This document shows positions 8,385 to 55,134 of a stretch of 64,000 bases of DNA, piece by piece. The translations under genes were made by a program, and so were the position numbers. The notes beneath the pieces are model-generated. The model searched no databases. It was not told the origin of the DNA and saw only the letters and a program-made list of their open reading frames with translations. This stretch comes from Verrucomicrobiota bacterium (GTDB lineage: Bacteria; Verrucomicrobiota; Verrucomicrobiia; Opitutales; UBA953), in contig BJHS01000003.1 of the NCBI GenBank assembly GCA_014193315.1, forward strand, positions 62,001-126,000, read 5' to 3'. Positions within the stretch are counted from its first letter, which is position 1. Every line of letters starts with the position of its first letter.

Positions 8385-8411
8385 AGGCCGTCTTTGCAGG
8401 CGGCCTTTTTG
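8385..8411 (+). terminator. Intrinsic terminator after rpsR
   Basis: AGGCCG (8385-8390) pairs with CGGCCT (8401-8406) and is followed by a run of T. It lies 23 bp after the rpsR stop and just before the threonylcarbamoyl-AMP synthase gene. Confidence 0.7.
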
Positions 8412-8428
8412 TTGGCCGGGATGGGAGG

Positions 8429-9484
8429 TTGCCCCCGTCCAGCCCTCGGGGTAAAACGGGCGGGACAATCCCGCCGTCTCCGCCTATCCGCTTCCTGTCC
8501 TTGGACTCGCCCGCTCCCAGCCCGCTCACGACCTCGCCGACCGACCTCGGGCGCGCGGCGGAGCTCTTGCGCACGGGCCACTGCGTGGCGCTGCCGACCG
8601 AGACGGTCTACGGTTTGGCCGCCGACGCGTTGAACCCGACGGCGGTCGCCCAGGTCTTCGCGATCAAGGGTCGCCCGTTGCTGGATCCGCTCATCGTGCA
8701 CGTGCTCGACCTCGCCGGCCTCGCGCAGGTGGCCGCGCCCGACCCGCGGCTGGCCAAGCTCGCCGCACTCTGGCCCGGCCCGCTCACGGTCGTGCTGCGT
8801 CGCCAGCCCAGCGTGCCCGACCTCGTCACCGCCGGCAAGGACACCGTGGCGGTGCGCCTGCCCGCGCACCCGGTCTTTCGCGAGGTGCTCCGGCTCGCCG
8901 GCCGGCCGCTCGCGGCGCCGAGCGCCAACCCCTTTGGTTACGTCAGCCCGACCCGCGCCGCGCACGTCGTTGACTCGTTGGGGGCGCGCTGCCCTTGGGT
9001 GGTCGACGGCGGCCCCTGCGAGCACGGCCTGGAGTCGACGATTCTCGACCTTTCCGTCCCGGGCCGCGCCCGCCTGCTCCGCCCTGGCCCGATTCCCGTC
9101 GAGACGCTGCGCGGGCTGTTAGGCGACGTCGCGGTGGTCACGCGTGCCGCGAGCCAGCACGCCGCGCAGGACGCCCCGGGCATGCTTGAGCGTCACTACA
9201 GCCCGGCCACGAAAGTCGCGCTCTTCCCGGCCGGCACCTTGCCCGTCGTGACGAACCTGCGTTCCGCGGTGGTCTTCCTCGGTCGGCGCGCGTCGCCGCC
9301 CGCCAACGCCGACGTCTTCCTGCTCTCGGAGGCGGGTTCAGTCGCGGAGGCCGCGCACCACCTCTTCGACCTCCTGCGCCGCCTGGATGGTCGCGGTTAC
9401 GCGACGATCCACGTGGAGCTGGCCAAGCCGGCCGGTGTGGGCGCCGCTTACAATGACCGCCTCACCCGCGCCGCCGCCCGCTGA
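8429..9484 (+). CDS. tsaC: Threonylcarbamoyl-AMP synthase (Sua5/TsaC type)
   Basis: About 351 residues. It makes threonylcarbamoyl-AMP from threonine, bicarbonate and ATP for the t6A37 modification of ANN-decoding tRNAs. The YrdC domain is clear: ALPTETVYGLAADA, KGRPLLDPLIVHV, LWPGPLTVVLRR, AVRLPAHPVF and PSANPFGYVSPT. After about residue 235 comes a Sua5 C-terminal domain introduced by GMLERHYSPAT. The start is unsure: no ATG is available, TTG 8429 gives the longest form, and TTG 8501 would still keep the whole catalytic domain. The stop overlaps prmC by one base. Confidence 0.92.
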   Translation: MPPSSPRGKTGGTIPPSPPIRFLSLDSPAPSPLTTSPTDLGRAAELLRTGHCVALPTETVYGLAADALNPTAVAQVFAIKGRPLLDPLIVHVLDLAGLAQVAAPDPRLAKLAALWPGPLTVVLRRQPSVPDLVTAGKDTVAVRLPAHPVFREVLRLAGRPLAAPSANPFGYVSPTRAAHVVDSLGARCPWVVDGGPCEHGLESTILDLSVPGRARLLRPGPIPVETLRGLLGDVAVVTRAASQHAAQDAPGMLERHYSPATKVALFPAGTLPVVTNLRSAVVFLGRRASPPANADVFLLSEAGSVAEAAHHLFDLLRRLDGRGYATIHVELAKPAGVGAAYNDRLTRAAAR

Positions 9485-10329
9485 TGCAAAACCTCCTCGA
9501 GACGTTGAAGAAGTCGACCGACTTCCTCGGCCGCAAAGGCATCGAGAAGCCGCGCGTCGAAGCCGAGCACCTCTTCGCCGCCGCGCTGGGGCTCAAGCGG
9601 CTCGACCTCTACCTGCAGTTCGAGCGCCTACTCACCGACGTCGAGGCTGATTGCCTGCGCGGGTTCGTGGTGCGCCGCGGTAACCGTGAGCCGCTCCAGC
9701 ACATCGTCGGCCACGTGGAGTTCCGCGACCTCGTCCTGAAGTCCGATCGACGCGCGCTCGTCCCCCGGCCCGAGACGGAGGAATTGATCGACCTCGCCCT
9801 GACGTTGTTCCCTCCGGATCAAGCGGTGCGCGTGCTCGACCTCGGCACGGGCTCAGGCGCGATCGCGCTGGCCTTGGCGTCGGAGCGCCCCGCGTGGGTC
9901 GTCGAGGCCGTGGACCGTTCGCCCGACGCCTTGGCGCTCGCCCGTGAAAACGCGGGGCGCTGCGGCCTCGCCGAACGCGTCGCCTTCGCGGAGTCCGACT
10001 GGTTCGCCGCGGTCACCGACGCCTACGACTTGATTGTCTCCAACCCGCCTTACTTGACGGAGGCCGAGGTCGCCGCCGCCGAGCCCGAGGTGCGCGAGTT
10101 CGATCCGAAGTCCGCGCTCATCGCGCCCGACGAGGGCTTGGCCGATCTTCGCCGCATCCTGACCGACGCCCCGCGCTTCCTGCGCGCCGGCGGCTGGGTG
10201 CTCCTCGAGACCGGCATCGACCAGCACGCCGCCTTGGCGGCGCTGTCGGCCCAAATAGGTTATGCCGAGTCTGCGGGCCAGCCCGACATGAGCGGCCGTC
10301 CGCGGTTCTGGCAGGCGAGGGTGGGTTGA
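9484..10329 (+). CDS. prmC: Release factor glutamine methyltransferase PrmC
   Basis: 281 residues. An N-terminal helical domain (1-85) is followed by a Rossmann methyltransferase with LDLGTGSGAIALALA and the diagnostic catalytic motif SNPPY. PrmC methylates the Gln of the GGQ motif in RF1/RF2. RPETEELIDLAL before the SAM site is also typical. It begins within the stop of the tsaC gene. Co-occurrence of Sua5/TsaC and PrmC in one translation-factor operon is common. Confidence 0.95.
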   Translation: MQNLLETLKKSTDFLGRKGIEKPRVEAEHLFAAALGLKRLDLYLQFERLLTDVEADCLRGFVVRRGNREPLQHIVGHVEFRDLVLKSDRRALVPRPETEELIDLALTLFPPDQAVRVLDLGTGSGAIALALASERPAWVVEAVDRSPDALALARENAGRCGLAERVAFAESDWFAAVTDAYDLIVSNPPYLTEAEVAAAEPEVREFDPKSALIAPDEGLADLRRILTDAPRFLRAGGWVLLETGIDQHAALAALSAQIGYAESAGQPDMSGRPRFWQARVG

Positions 10330-10330
10330 G

Positions 10331-10576
10331 GGCAGTAGGGAGTAAGTAGTGGGTGATAGGGAGTGGGGAGTCGGGAATCGGTGTTGGGGATTGGGAACAG
10401 GGTGCTGCCCCTACCTAGGCCCCTACCTGAACGGGGCCTTCGGCAACGGGGTCAGGCACGCCATCGCTACGCAAGGCGAAGCCAGACCCCCGCCTCGCCC
10501 ACTCCCTGCCATCTACTCCCCACTCCCTACTCCCTAATTCCTAATTCCCAATTCCCAACACCTCACCCGTCATCCC
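10331..10576. repeat. Seven-base periodic spacer island, two arms on opposite strands
   Basis: The 300-bp gap between prmC and proS holds ten consecutive heptads at 10331-10400 (GGCAGTA, GGGAGTA, AGTAGTG, GGTGATA, GGGAGTG, GGGAGTC, GGGAATC, GGTGTTG, GGGATTG, GGAACAG). Eleven heptads at 10500-10576 use the same vocabulary on the other strand (CACTCCC, TACTCCC, TAATTCC, CAATTCC, CAACACC). The middle has two GTAGGGG heads read on the minus strand (10406-10425). The order of words is not mirrored, so it is not a simple hairpin. Confidence 0.75.
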
Positions 10577-10629
10577 CCGGCACTTTCGTTTCCTTGCCCT
10601 TTCTCCTTCCTTCCCTCTTTACTGACCGC

Positions 10630-12159
10630 ATGTCCCAGCCGCCCGCCGCCAAGCCCAAGACCGCCATCTCGCCGACTCGCGCCGAGGATTACCCGGAGTG
10701 GTACCTCCAGGTCATCAAGCACGCCGACCTCGCCGAGAACAGCGCCGTCCGCGGTTGCATGGTGATCAAGCCGTGGGGCTACGCGCTCTGGGAAAACATC
10801 CAGCGCGACCTCGATGCGATGTTCAAGGAGACGGGCCACGTGAACGCCTATTTCCCGCTCTTCATCCCCGTCAGCTACATCCAGAAGGAAGCCGCCCACG
10901 TCGACGGCTTCGCCAAGGAGTGCGCGGTCGTCACCCACTCGCGCCTCGAGGCAGGCCCCGACGGCAAGCTCGTCCCCGCGGGTGAGCTCGAGGAGCCCCT
11001 CATCGTCCGCCCGACCTCCGAGACCATCATCGGCGAGACCTACGCCAAGTGGGTGCAGTCCTACCGCGACCTCCCCATCCTCATCAACCAGTGGGCCAAC
11101 GTCGTCCGCTGGGAGATGCGCACCCGCCTGTTCCTGCGTACCGCCGAGTTCCTCTGGCAGGAAGGCCACACCGTCCACGCCACCGAGGCCGAGGCGATCG
11201 AGGAGACCAACAAGATGCTCGAGGTCTACGCCGACTTCGCCGAGAACTATATGGCGATGCCGGTCATCAAGGGCCGCAAGACCGAGGGCGAGCGTTTCCC
11301 GGGCGCCGTCGACACGCTCTGCATCGAGTCGATGATGCAGGACCGCAAGGCCCTCCAGGCCGGTACCTCGCACTACCTTGGCCAGAACTTCGCCAAGTCC
11401 TGCGGCATCCAGTTCCAGGATGAGAAAGGCACCCAGCAGTTCGCGCACACCACCTCCTGGGGCGTCTCCACCCGCCTCATCGGCGGCATGATCATGACGC
11501 ATTCCGACGACGACGGGTTCGTCGCCCCGCCGCGCCTCGCCCCGCAGCACGTCGTCATCTGCCCGATCTACAAGGATGACGCGACCAAGGCCGATATCCT
11601 CGCCTATTGCCAGTCGCTCCAGAAGGAGCTCGCCGCCCAGCGCTTCCACGACCGCAAGATCGTCGTGACCGTCGACAACCGCGACATCCGCGGCGGCGAC
11701 AAGGCCTGGGGCTGGATCAAGAAGGGCGTCCCTCTGCGCGTCGAGGTCGGCCCGCGCGACTTCGCCGCCGGTGCGGTCTTCGTCGCCCGCCGCGACACCG
11801 GCGAGAAGGCCGGCGTCCCGCGCGCCGAGTTCGTCGCCACCATCGTCGACCGTCTGCAGGCCATCCAGGACAACCTCCTGGCCCGCGCCAAGGCCCATCG
11901 CGCCGCACACACCCGCACGATCGACACCTGGGAGGAGCTCAAGGCCTACTTCACGCCGCAGAACCCCGAGCGCCCCGAGATCCACGGCGGCTTCGCCCTG
12001 TGCCACTGGAACGGTAGCAAGGCGGTCGAGAAGCGCCTCAAGGAGGAGCTCAAGGTCACCATCCGCTGCATCCCGCTCGACGCCCAGGATGAGCCTGGCA
12101 AGTGCGTCGTCACCGGCGAGCCCAGCGCCCGCCGCGTCGTGATGGCGAAGGCGTACTGA
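10630..12159 (+). CDS. proS: Prolyl-tRNA synthetase, archaeal/eukaryotic type
   Basis: A 509-residue class II synthetase from ATG 10630; a longer upstream frame runs through the repeat island and is rejected. RPTSETII and the motif-2 stretch NQWANVVRWEMRTRLFLR are present, as are TEFLWQEGHT-like AEFLWQEGHT and the motif-3 SWGVSTRLIGGMIM. It lacks the bacterial editing insertion and ends with a C-terminal Tyr (VVMAKAY), both features of the archaeal-type (ProS3) enzyme. It charges tRNA-Pro. It is likely transcribed separately from prmC because of the 300-bp spacer. Confidence 0.96.
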   Translation: MSQPPAAKPKTAISPTRAEDYPEWYLQVIKHADLAENSAVRGCMVIKPWGYALWENIQRDLDAMFKETGHVNAYFPLFIPVSYIQKEAAHVDGFAKECAVVTHSRLEAGPDGKLVPAGELEEPLIVRPTSETIIGETYAKWVQSYRDLPILINQWANVVRWEMRTRLFLRTAEFLWQEGHTVHATEAEAIEETNKMLEVYADFAENYMAMPVIKGRKTEGERFPGAVDTLCIESMMQDRKALQAGTSHYLGQNFAKSCGIQFQDEKGTQQFAHTTSWGVSTRLIGGMIMTHSDDDGFVAPPRLAPQHVVICPIYKDDATKADILAYCQSLQKELAAQRFHDRKIVVTVDNRDIRGGDKAWGWIKKGVPLRVEVGPRDFAAGAVFVARRDTGEKAGVPRAEFVATIVDRLQAIQDNLLARAKAHRAAHTRTIDTWEELKAYFTPQNPERPEIHGGFALCHWNGSKAVEKRLKEELKVTIRCIPLDAQDEPGKCVVTGEPSARRVVMAKAY

Positions 12160-14437: not shown

Positions 14438-14719
14438 TTGGCAGCTGGCACGCTGGCAAGGGGGCACGTGGGCAAGGGAAGATGTAGAGATGCGGTGAGG
14501 GACAGTGATAAGGACAGGGTCAGAGACAGGGTCAGGGGAAGGATTCAGTTATACGGATTTTGAACCCAATGTTTTTAATCTGACCTTTTCCCTGTCCCTG
14601 ACCCTATTGCTCTTGTTGCCTCTAGGTAGGGCTGACCATCCTCGGTCGGCCGCGGACCTGCAGGGACGCTGGTCCCTGCAGGTGACTGGAGCGCGCCTTG
14701 CCCGCTTGCCAGCGTGTCC
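14438..14719. repeat. Nested 8-base and 6-base periodic spacer island, repeat copy A
   Basis: The 348-bp gap between xseA and the dehydrogenase is layered. The left arm has octamers at 14438-14477 (TTGGCAGC, TGGCACGC, TGGCAAGG, GGGCACGT, GGGCAAGG), then hexamers at 14501-14548 (GACAGG, GTCAGA, GACAGG, GTCAGG). An AT-rich core follows. The right arm has hexamers on the other strand at 14591-14608 (CCTGTC, CCTGAC, CCTATT), a GGTAG-headed palindrome, and octamers at 14696-14719 (CCTTGCCC, GCTTGCCA, GCGTGTCC). 14555-14683 is closely repeated at 15703-15833. Confidence 0.75.
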
Positions 14720-14740
14720 CCTAGTCATCTCAATCCCTTC

Positions 14741-15625: not shown

Positions 15626-15833
15626 GCGGTTAGCGGATAGCGATTGGGGGATGCAAAAGGGTCAGGGGCAGGTGGATACAAAAAGGACAGGATTCAGGGA
15701 CAGGATTTTGAACTTCATGTTTTTGCCTGATCCTTCCCCTGACCCTGTCACTGACCCTGTTGCTCTTGTTGCATCTTGGTAGGGCTGACCGTCCTCGGTC
15801 GGCCGCGGACCAGCAGGGACGCTGGCCCCTGCC
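15626..15833. repeat. Periodic spacer island, repeat copy B
   Basis: The gap between the convergent dehydrogenase and pyk genes starts with heptads GGCGGTT, AGCGGAT, AGCGATT, GGGGGAT (15626-15653). A hexamer arm follows (AAAAGG, GTCAGG, GGCAGG at 15655-15672), then an AT-rich core. The opposite-strand hexamer arm is at 15726-15761 (CCTGAT, CCTTCC, CCTGAC, CCTGTC, ACTGAC, CCTGTT). A GGTAG-headed palindrome lies at 15778-15802. Bases 15703-15833 align with 14555-14683 in direct orientation with only scattered differences. Confidence 0.75.
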
Positions 15834-17966: not shown

Positions 17967-17989
17967 GAGGGGGTTAAGAGGGAAAGGGG

Positions 17990-18119
17990 GAGGGGAGGCA
18001 AGTGATGGCTCAGGAAGGTGGTAGGGAGTGGGAAGTAGGGCTTAGTCGTGGCGAGGACTCGCTCCCAACTCCTCACCCCTCCCCCCCTCACCTAACACCT
18101 CCCGGCCCGTCTGGCCGGG
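17990..18119. repeat. Periodic spacer island and GC hairpin between trmB and the next gene
   Basis: The 207-bp divergent gap has a purine arm (GGAGGGGAGG, then GTAGGGA, GTGGGAA, GTAGGGC at about 18018-18040). A pyrimidine arm with the same step follows (CTCCCAA, CTCCTCA, CCCCTCC, ACCTAAC, ACCTCCC at about 18061-18103). A separate hairpin CCCGGCC / GGCCGGG lies at 18101-18119, 55 bp before the next ATG. No clear promoter is visible. Confidence 0.45.
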
Positions 18120-18173
18120 TTGCGAATAACTCCGGCTTCCCTCGGGGGCCTGCTTGGAGTCTCTTGGGGGTCT

Positions 18174-24547: not shown

Positions 24548-24771
24548 GGACGGAGTACAGAGTGCGGGGTACAGAGGACAGAGTACAGAGTACAGAGTGC
24601 AGAGGACGGAGTACGGAGTGCGGAGGGTGGGGTGGTGGATTCGGATTATAATAGGGAATGGGTGGGGAGATTTTCTTATCCGTACTTCGTCCTTTGCGCT
24701 CCGTCCTCATCACTTCCCCTTGTCCACGTGTCCCCGTGCCCACGTGTCCCCTCGCGAGGCTTCGCCTCGCG
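24548..24771. repeat. Eleven-heptad array with opposite-strand heptads and octamers
   Basis: The 284-bp gap between two minus-strand genes holds eleven uninterrupted heptads (24548-24624): GGACGGA, GTACAGA, GTGCGGG, GTACAGA, GGACAGA, GTACAGA, GTACAGA, GTGCAGA, GGACGGA, GTACGGA, GTGCGGA. An AT-rich core (GATTATAATAGG) follows. Opposite-strand heptads TCCGTAC, TTCGTCC, TTTGCGC, TCCGTCC lie at 24679-24706, and octamers CCTTGTCC, ACGTGTCC, CCGTGCCC, ACGTGTCC at 24718-24749. A hairpin CGCGAGGC-TTC-GCCTCGCG (24753-24771) ends it beside the cfa stop. Confidence 0.85.
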
Positions 24772-50387: not shown

Positions 50388-50412
50388 GTCGGCACGCAGT
50401 GCCGACCCTACC
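50387..50412 (-). repeat. REP-like palindrome between bioA and bioB
   Basis: GGTCGGCAC (50387-50395), loop GCA, GTGCCGACC (50399-50407), then CTACC. On the minus strand this is a GGTAG head followed by a 9-bp stem and 3-nt loop, the same geometry as the array at 54662-54948. It overlaps the last base of the bioA stop. Confidence 0.7.
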
Positions 50413-50416
50413 TTTC

Positions 50417-50451
50417 CCCGATACTCGATACTCTAAACTCCATACTCTATC
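50417..50451. repeat. Five heptads forming the bioB leader
   Basis: CCCGATA, CTCGATA, CTCTAAA, CTCCATA, CTCTATC run without a break to 3 bp before the bioB ATG. They leave no purine-rich ribosome site. Confidence 0.65.
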
Positions 50452-50454
50452 ATT

Positions 50455-54606: not shown

Positions 54607-54661
54607 CGCGCAGAGTGAGTTGATCCGTTGATCAGTTGGCCGGTTGGCAAGGGATACGGAA
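54607..54661. repeat. Octamer array after bioC
   Basis: Four in-phase octamers TTGATCCG, TTGATCAG, TTGGCCGG, TTGGCAAG (54620-54651). TTGGCAAG-type words are also seen in the spacer at 14438-14477. Confidence 0.6.
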
Positions 54662-54948
54662 GGTAGGGATGCGATGACATCGCATCCGTTTGCATTAGGT
54701 AGGGGCGCCACGGCGTGGCGTCCGTGGGCGTAGGGTAGGGACGGCTCTCCGAGCCGTCCGTATGATGCCGGCGGGCTCGGAGAGCCGCGCCCTACCCAAA
54801 GCTGAGGCGGTTAGGCAGTGAAGGGGGTAGGGCGGTGATTGCCATCACCGCCGTTCGAGATCGGAGAAGGGGAGTCGTCGGGTCTTAGCTCAGCGCGATG
54901 AGGCCGCCTGTCCGTCCGCGAACGGGCGCGACGCCGTCGCGCCCCTAC
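54662..54948. repeat. Array of six GTAG-headed REP-like palindromes in both orientations
   Basis: Forward units have head GGTAG and then a stem. Unit 1: GGATGCGAT-GAC-ATCGCATCC (54667-54687). Unit 2: GGGCGCCAC-GGC-GTGGCGTCC (54703-54723). Unit 3: GGACGGCTC-TCC-GAGCCGTCC (54739-54759). Unit 5: GGCGGTGAT-TGCC-ATCACCGCC (54831-54852). Reverse units end in CTAC. Unit 4 is at about 54770-54796, imperfect and related to unit 3. Unit 6: GGGCGCGAC-GCC-GTCGCGCCC (54924-54948). Stems differ in sequence; head, stem length and loop length are constant. Confidence 0.85.
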
Positions 54949-55134
54949 GCAATGCCGGCCGCCGCATGGTGGCCGATGGTAGGGGCAGGACTCCGTCATG
55001 ACCTATTGATGCGAAAGGGCGCGGCGTAGCCTAGCCCCTACCTTTCGTTCACCATTCGGCGAACGTGCTGCAGCACCCCGTGCGGAGCGCTTTCCCAACC
55101 GCCATCCGCTAACCGCCAACCGCTACTACCTTGC
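54949..55134. repeat. Rest of the bioC-rnhB spacer with a heptad block
   Basis: Contains further GTAGGGGC heads (54979, and 55031-55043 reversed as CCCCTACC) and a palindrome-like GTGCTGCAGCACCC (55070-55083). Heptads AACCGCC, ATCCGCT, AACCGCC, AACCGCT, ACTACCT lie at 55097-55131. ATCCGCTAACCGCC is the exact reverse complement of the 14-mer at 15626-15639. No gene is seen in the 528-bp gap. Confidence 0.6.

Follow-up and report, generated by a model that had tools for sequence, protein, structure and literature searches.

Many intergenic spacers of the verrucomicrobial genus studied here carry two degenerate tandem arrays of short G-rich words that face each other, the G-rich strand of each arm pointing its 3′ end towards the middle. 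In a more permissive scan, this order (G-rich arm first) has been found in 46 of 47 two-arm spacers whatever the gene orientation, with 19 of 20 for '--' gene pairs, 11 of 11 for convergent, 10 of 10 for divergent and 6 of 6 for '++' pairs. This permissive scan has a background of noise, as block shuffling of those spacers leaves 41 arms in all; a stricter scan gives about 0 arms in shuffles of a slightly different kind. With single and paired arms taken together, 50 of 64 G-rich arms lie in the left half of their spacer and 34 of 37 C-rich arms in the right half (p = 2e-12). The facing rule stays constant while the words themselves are exchanged between sister species, and this combination points to directional DNA-copying and not to a conserved signal.

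The rule can be followed at the 300-base spacer between prmC and proS in the window (the whole stretch of 64,000 nucleotides analysed, with 67% G+C, from a genome of 2.36 Mb). The features of this locus and the other array-bearing spacers of the window are the following:

9484–10329, + strand: prmC (release factor glutamine methyltransferase), left neighbour; NCBIfam TIGR03534, 258 bits, over the cut-off
10331–10400, + strand: left arm, about ten degenerate G-rich heptads; period-7 identity 0.63
10418–10438, no strand: palindrome GGCCCC-N9-GGGGCC between the arms (sequence, fold)
10448–10490, no strand: imperfect REP-like palindrome GGGGTCAGGC...GCCAGACCCC between the arms (sequence, fold, genome search)
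10498–10576, − strand: right arm, about ten to eleven heptads, G-rich on the − strand; period-7 identity 0.69; TRF
10630–12159, + strand: proS (class I-type proline--tRNA ligase), right neighbour; NCBIfam TIGR00408, 502.7 bits, over the cut-off
14438–14726, no strand: two-arm spacer with octad and hexad arms, ordered G, G then C, C (low threshold)
15626–15764, no strand: two-arm spacer, heptads then hexads, G first, between convergent genes (low threshold)
17970–18100, no strand: two-arm spacer (spacer 17967–18173), G first; other words in the G021 and G011 orthologues
24553–24755, no strand: first island, G-rich heptads at 24553–24638, then C-rich octads at 24710–24755; G first
50410–50453, no strand: lone C-rich heptad arm upstream of a + gene
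54615–55131, no strand: two-arm spacer, octads then heptads, G first, with a long loop, between convergent genes (low threshold)

The left arm starts 1 base past the prmC stop codon, 97 bases holding both palindromes lie between the arms, and a pyrimidine-rich proS leader comes after the right arm. At this locus, in line with the polarity across the genus, the repeats stand on the sense strand after stops and on the antisense strand before starts. The preliminary description had proposed heptad arrays on the two strands; its left array is confirmed, and on the right the regular part spans about 10498–10562, the last 14 bases to 10576 being weaker. The match at lag 7 reaches 0.63 in the left arm (mean of dinucleotide shuffles 0.35) and 0.69 in the reverse complement of 10498–10576 (0.37 shuffled), with 0 of 2000 shuffles as high in either case; in addition, TRF calls a period of 7/14 at 10513–10558. 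The words GGGAGTA, GGGAGTG and GGTGTTG are indeed present in both arms, which have 17 distinct 7-mers in common (shuffle mean 3.3, maximum 15, with 0 of 2000 reaching 17). Their order is unmirrored, as had been proposed: the local alignment of the left arm with the reverse-complemented right arm scores 21, heptad-order shuffles average 23.7 and equal or beat the real order in 843 of 1000 cases, and a mirrored hairpin is therefore rejected for this locus. The units comprise GGGAGTR, GGGAATY, GGTGTTG and others, so that this is not an array of GGGNATC units; GGGAATC occurs once, in the left arm. The locus had also been presented as a second island of one design, and in fact, besides the island near 24550, it is the sole site of the window with a 60-base stretch of at least 0.58 period-7 identity. 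Recurrence of the design at unrelated loci is borne out by the many spacers with facing arrays.

Proteins of the genus match those of named Verrucomicrobia contigs at 53–61%, which suggests that it belongs to this phylum. The survey of the genus covered about 2.2 Mb from five genomes (862 kb of the window's genome and 160 to 707 kb from each of four congeners, these being draft genomes, one per species), in which genes were called by a simple codon model and 792 spacers were scanned. Part of the G021 sample was picked around known word matches; array densities are therefore not unbiased, and the polarity counts are independent of that choice. This yielded 102 array arms, with periods of 6, 7 or 8. 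Among the 513 spacers sampled first, periods 7 and 8 were prominent, 6 in some genomes, together with multiples, and periods 4, 5, 9, 10, 11 and 13 were at or near the shuffle level. Read on the G-rich strand, the word families are GGGAGTR, RGAGTRC, RGCGGTT, GGGGATR and SGAGTAT for heptads; CGAGGRCR, RGTTGRYC/AGTGGGCC, AGGTGCAA and ACGKGGRC for octads; and AGGGCT and CAGGGW for hexads, several families often being mixed in one spacer. Words are shared preferentially within loci, a check that had been suggested: 6-mer sharing is 0.179 for arms of the same spacer vs 0.102 for those of different spacers of one genome (permutation p = 2e-4), with about half of the arm pairs having no or hardly any common words. 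The arrays are degenerate, since none of the 83 heptad and octad arms reaches 95% adjacent-unit identity, and they do not have the near-identical units of simple sequence repeats of the phase-variation type. Unit similarity falls with distance (trimmed profile 0.81, 0.79, 0.76 and 0.70 at lags 1–4 in the genus), the difference between lag 2 and lag 4 giving p = 4e-4 in the genus and p = 1.5e-21 in other phyla. This is expected if each unit is copied from its neighbour, and it would also arise if an array consisted of a few blocks of different words. No gradient of homogeneity exists along the arms (p = 0.31 and 0.13), and a directional growth gradient has accordingly been discarded. Transitions between neighbouring units show no excess in the genus (0.395 vs 0.396 expected), so there is no sign of wobble-tolerant copying, and transition-biased (wobble) copying has been set aside as well.

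General base composition of spacers has been rejected as the cause of the polarity, because array-free spacers are skewed only beside start codons and those between convergent genes are almost without skew (+0.09 and −0.03). In array-free spacers, the sense strand is rich in C and T immediately before start codons (GC skew about 0.15–0.24), a hint that these leaders lack a strong Shine-Dalgarno sequence. As leaders are thus pyrimidine-rich even where no array is present, part of the polarity at these places may be due to selection.

Array-bearing spacers turn over between species. The prmC–proS comparison included fifteen proS loci with that of the window, nine congeners being counted and five not (the other end being shown). 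The nearest relative, G014, has flanks 88–95% identical to those of the window's genome and carries octads CGAGGACA/CGAGGGCG and their reverse complements, on both strands. In G015 octads are found on the C-rich side; the spacers of G011, G007, G021, G001 and G010 hold mainly palindromes; and those of G019 and G018 are short, with no arrays. On a larger scale, 387 orthologous spacer comparisons (both directions counted) include 34 that start from an array-bearing spacer; the partner has an array in 7 of them, and in the other 27 none is called in the orthologue, so that retention at the same locus is not the usual case. For example, one gene pair is separated by 284 bases in the window's genome vs 4 in G021. 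Another array differs by several units between G020 and G021, its place in G000 being taken by octads from a different family. The spacer at 17967–18173 shows kept edges around three different word sets in three species, and spacer edges in orthologues indicate replacement, not a clean insertion with target duplication. The preliminary description took the design for a mobile or actively generated spacer element. The lack of conservation in close relatives fits a repeat-generating process and not a selected sequence; a mobile element in the strict sense is not supported, as no array-specific transposase or mobile element was found, and the orthologous spacers read showed neither recurrent ends nor clean insertions.

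Palindromes accompany the arrays in several genomes. REP-like palindromes (GGTAGGGTCGGCACTACGTGCCGACC and relatives) fill array spacers in congeners (upstream of proS, L005, L007, L011, L015 and L016), where they are often paired as facing GGTAGGG...CCCTACC. In G021 a composite block of heptads and palindromes is common to four spacers, and such dispersal within one genome implies that copying between loci does occur. A stretch of the same genome (L125, about 8400–12150) contains heptads, GTGCAAA palindromes and GGTAGGGGCGTGGC palindromes as a composite repeat, four times within 4 kb. Genes of the Y1 transposase type (Y1_Tnp) have been detected in 20 of 41 congeners, several of them in frames of about 300–330 amino acids, as in RAYT proteins. 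None was detected in the window's genome, and a Y1 transposase (RAYT) was consequently dropped as the driver. The Ku gene is absent in 41 of 41 genomes and reverse transcriptase in 40 of 41, being present in one; Ku-dependent end joining and, save in that genome, a resident reverse transcriptase have been discarded on these grounds, and the two gene searches implicate no enzyme.

The facing rule extends to other phyla. An exact scan of named genomes with GGAGTRSGGAGTRSGGAGTR lists matches mainly in cyanobacteria, and also in planctomycetes, spirochaetes, acidobacteria, verrucomicrobia, gemmatimonads, proteobacteria and others. Among 78 arrays from the matches listed, a C-rich array lies 3′ in 36 and 5′ in 1 (within 350 bases); with phylum labels taken from record titles, the ratio among these matches is 30 to 1 (of 54) for cyanobacteria and 6 to 0 for the others. 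Four named verrucomicrobial arrays among the matches listed have no C-rich array within 350 bases. The exact pattern is present in 14 of 237 genomes of the window's class, and the words are therefore patchy. Some cyanobacterial spacers (L212, L220, L229 and L237) contain octads (GTCTCCGC) and ATGCCCA heptads beside GGGAGTG words, facing likewise.

The arrays are degenerate short tandem repeats of heptamer type, rich in G (STRR or long simple sequence repeat) and in a paired, facing form. As to their origin, we give a probability of roughly one half to slippage with template switching, which would produce a turnover-prone, non-coding filler of spacers. A 3′ end lying in a G-rich stretch would slip one word back and copy again, leading to tandem growth, and the growing end would sometimes take the facing arm or a different locus as its template instead. 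Such switching could yield two arms with one vocabulary in unmirrored order, and rewrite spacers between sister species. Growth would start at G-rich 3′ ends that flank a gap or break on both sides, and the polarity of the arms suggests a 3′-end start of this sort. From the sequences we infer slippage, template switching, this origin of the polarity and the absence of a sequence-specific function. Slippage would account for the tandem arrangement and for similarity falling with distance, and switching to the facing arm for common words without a common order. Plain slippage does not predict polarity, so an additional asymmetry is needed, for which G-rich 3′ ends at a gap provide the simplest geometry; and since about half of the arm pairs share hardly any words, templating by the facing arm would not be the whole story.

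Other explanations share some of this evidence. The arms might be a selected structure, folding as stem-loop, G-quadruplex or i-motif in DNA or RNA and acting at gene ends, e.g., in termination, mRNA stability or translation initiation. The spacer RNA does fold better than shuffles (z = −4.0), the left arm (not the right one) has one three-tier G-quadruplex motif (GGGTGATAGGGAGTGGGGAGTCGGG), the leaders at start codons of the genus are generally C/T-rich, and GGGAATC repeats form G-quadruplexes in vitro, most repeats being transcribed (Rehm et al., 2015; PMC4692102). We nevertheless consider this unlikely, at the level of one chance among several, because the three-tier motif is found in only 35 of the 102 arms of the genus and 1 of 24 octad arms, no intrinsic terminator (short GC stem then a T run) or promoter was matched at the prmC–proS spacer, and the best Rfam matches there are far under the gathering scores. 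Moreover, C-first and G-first arms would form a stem equally well and leave the ratio of 46 to 1 unexplained, the polarity persists between convergent genes, where no leader exists, and in congeners no arrays separate these same genes, as in the pair with 284 and 4 bases.

A palindromic element looks G-first in either orientation, and the arms could be the ends of such an element, dispersed and mobile or gene-converted, of the REP/BIME or MITE kind. The REP-like palindromes between the arms and in the same spacer of congeners, the composite G021 block and the Y1 transposase-type genes of the congeners agree with such an element, whose likelihood is lowered, somewhat below that of a selected structure, by the arrays of a genome with no Y1 transposase detected, by a central palindrome (10448–10490) that is single-copy in that genome (search to 3 mismatches over 31 bases), by word families and periods that vary between the arms of one spacer and between orthologues, and by edges of the replacement type. 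The geometry itself, in which G-rich strands have their 3′ ends inward (46 of 47 spacers in the genus and, among the matches listed, 36 to 1 in other phyla), is exactly that of end-healing, in which both 3′ ends of a break would gain G-rich repeats (telomerase-like or by error-prone end joining) and then be joined, so that facing arrays would remain around a variable middle. Periods confined to 6–8 and orthologous sites that resemble replaced filler inside conserved edges are in line with it, and the lack of Ku throughout the genus and of reverse transcriptase in 40 of 41 genomes, together with arms without a growth gradient, makes it improbable, the least favoured of the three. Just as speculative is its general form, i.e., that in many bacteria an unrecognised process adds 6–8-base G-rich words to the 3′ ends flanking a spacer lesion, a telomere-like end-healing without telomerase of which facing arrays would be the scars. 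Slippage with template switching is the reading that we favour. Whichever is right, a rule of 46 to 1 in the genus and 36 to 1 elsewhere (among the matches listed), whatever the gene direction or the words, narrows the range of possible mechanisms. It speaks against slippage alone and against a function tied only to the direction of transcription, and for a process that treats both sides of a spacer alike; it is also testable in culturable cyanobacteria and laboratory strains.

Heptameric repeats in bacterial spacers have been noted since 1990, without an accepted origin. The STRR heptanucleotide repeats of heterocystous cyanobacteria, reportedly described by Mazel et al. in 1990 without any facing rule, are short tandem heptads scattered in spacers as here, a likeness of description and not unit by unit. 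The TAACTGA direct repeats of Beggiatoaceae and cyanobacteria are also intergenic heptamers, patchy over phyla; unlike the present arrays, they repeat one invariant A+T-rich word, placed immediately before start codons and for the most part pointing the same way, with a single indirect repeat reported (MacGregor, 2015; PMC4679880). REP/BIME palindromes with their RAYT transposases are likewise dispersed in spacers, and palindromes occur here between the arms, although the arrays, instead of a fixed palindrome, are tandem words of period 6–8 without a detected Y1 transposase. The closest known system is that of the GGGAATC / GGGGA(C/T)T heptameric G-quadruplex repeats of Xanthomonas and Nostoc, for which no settled origin has been proposed (Rehm et al., 2015; PMC4692102). 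These are also degenerate tandem 7-nt G-rich units that lie between genes close to ORF ends, on the sense strand behind stop codons and on the antisense strand ahead of start codons, and they too form convergent +/− pairs. In two Xanthomonas genomes, 70 and 75 such pairs in close proximity have been counted, all of one motif, so the facing layout is already known from that genus (Rehm et al., 2015; PMC4692102). On the other hand, that study found one motif per genome, 83% of the Xanthomonas repeats at the same locus in two species, and few pairs in Nostoc (Rehm et al., 2015; PMC4692102). Here one genome has many word families with periods 6, 7 and 8, words are replaced at orthologous spacers, and facing pairs are also common in cyanobacteria when all words are counted (30 of 54 vs 1 among the matches listed). 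Searches of the open-access literature found no paper stating such a rule for further words or phyla. What is new here is a facing rule that holds across several word families, all gene arrangements and phyla, and that extends the layout of Rehm et al. (2015; PMC4692102).
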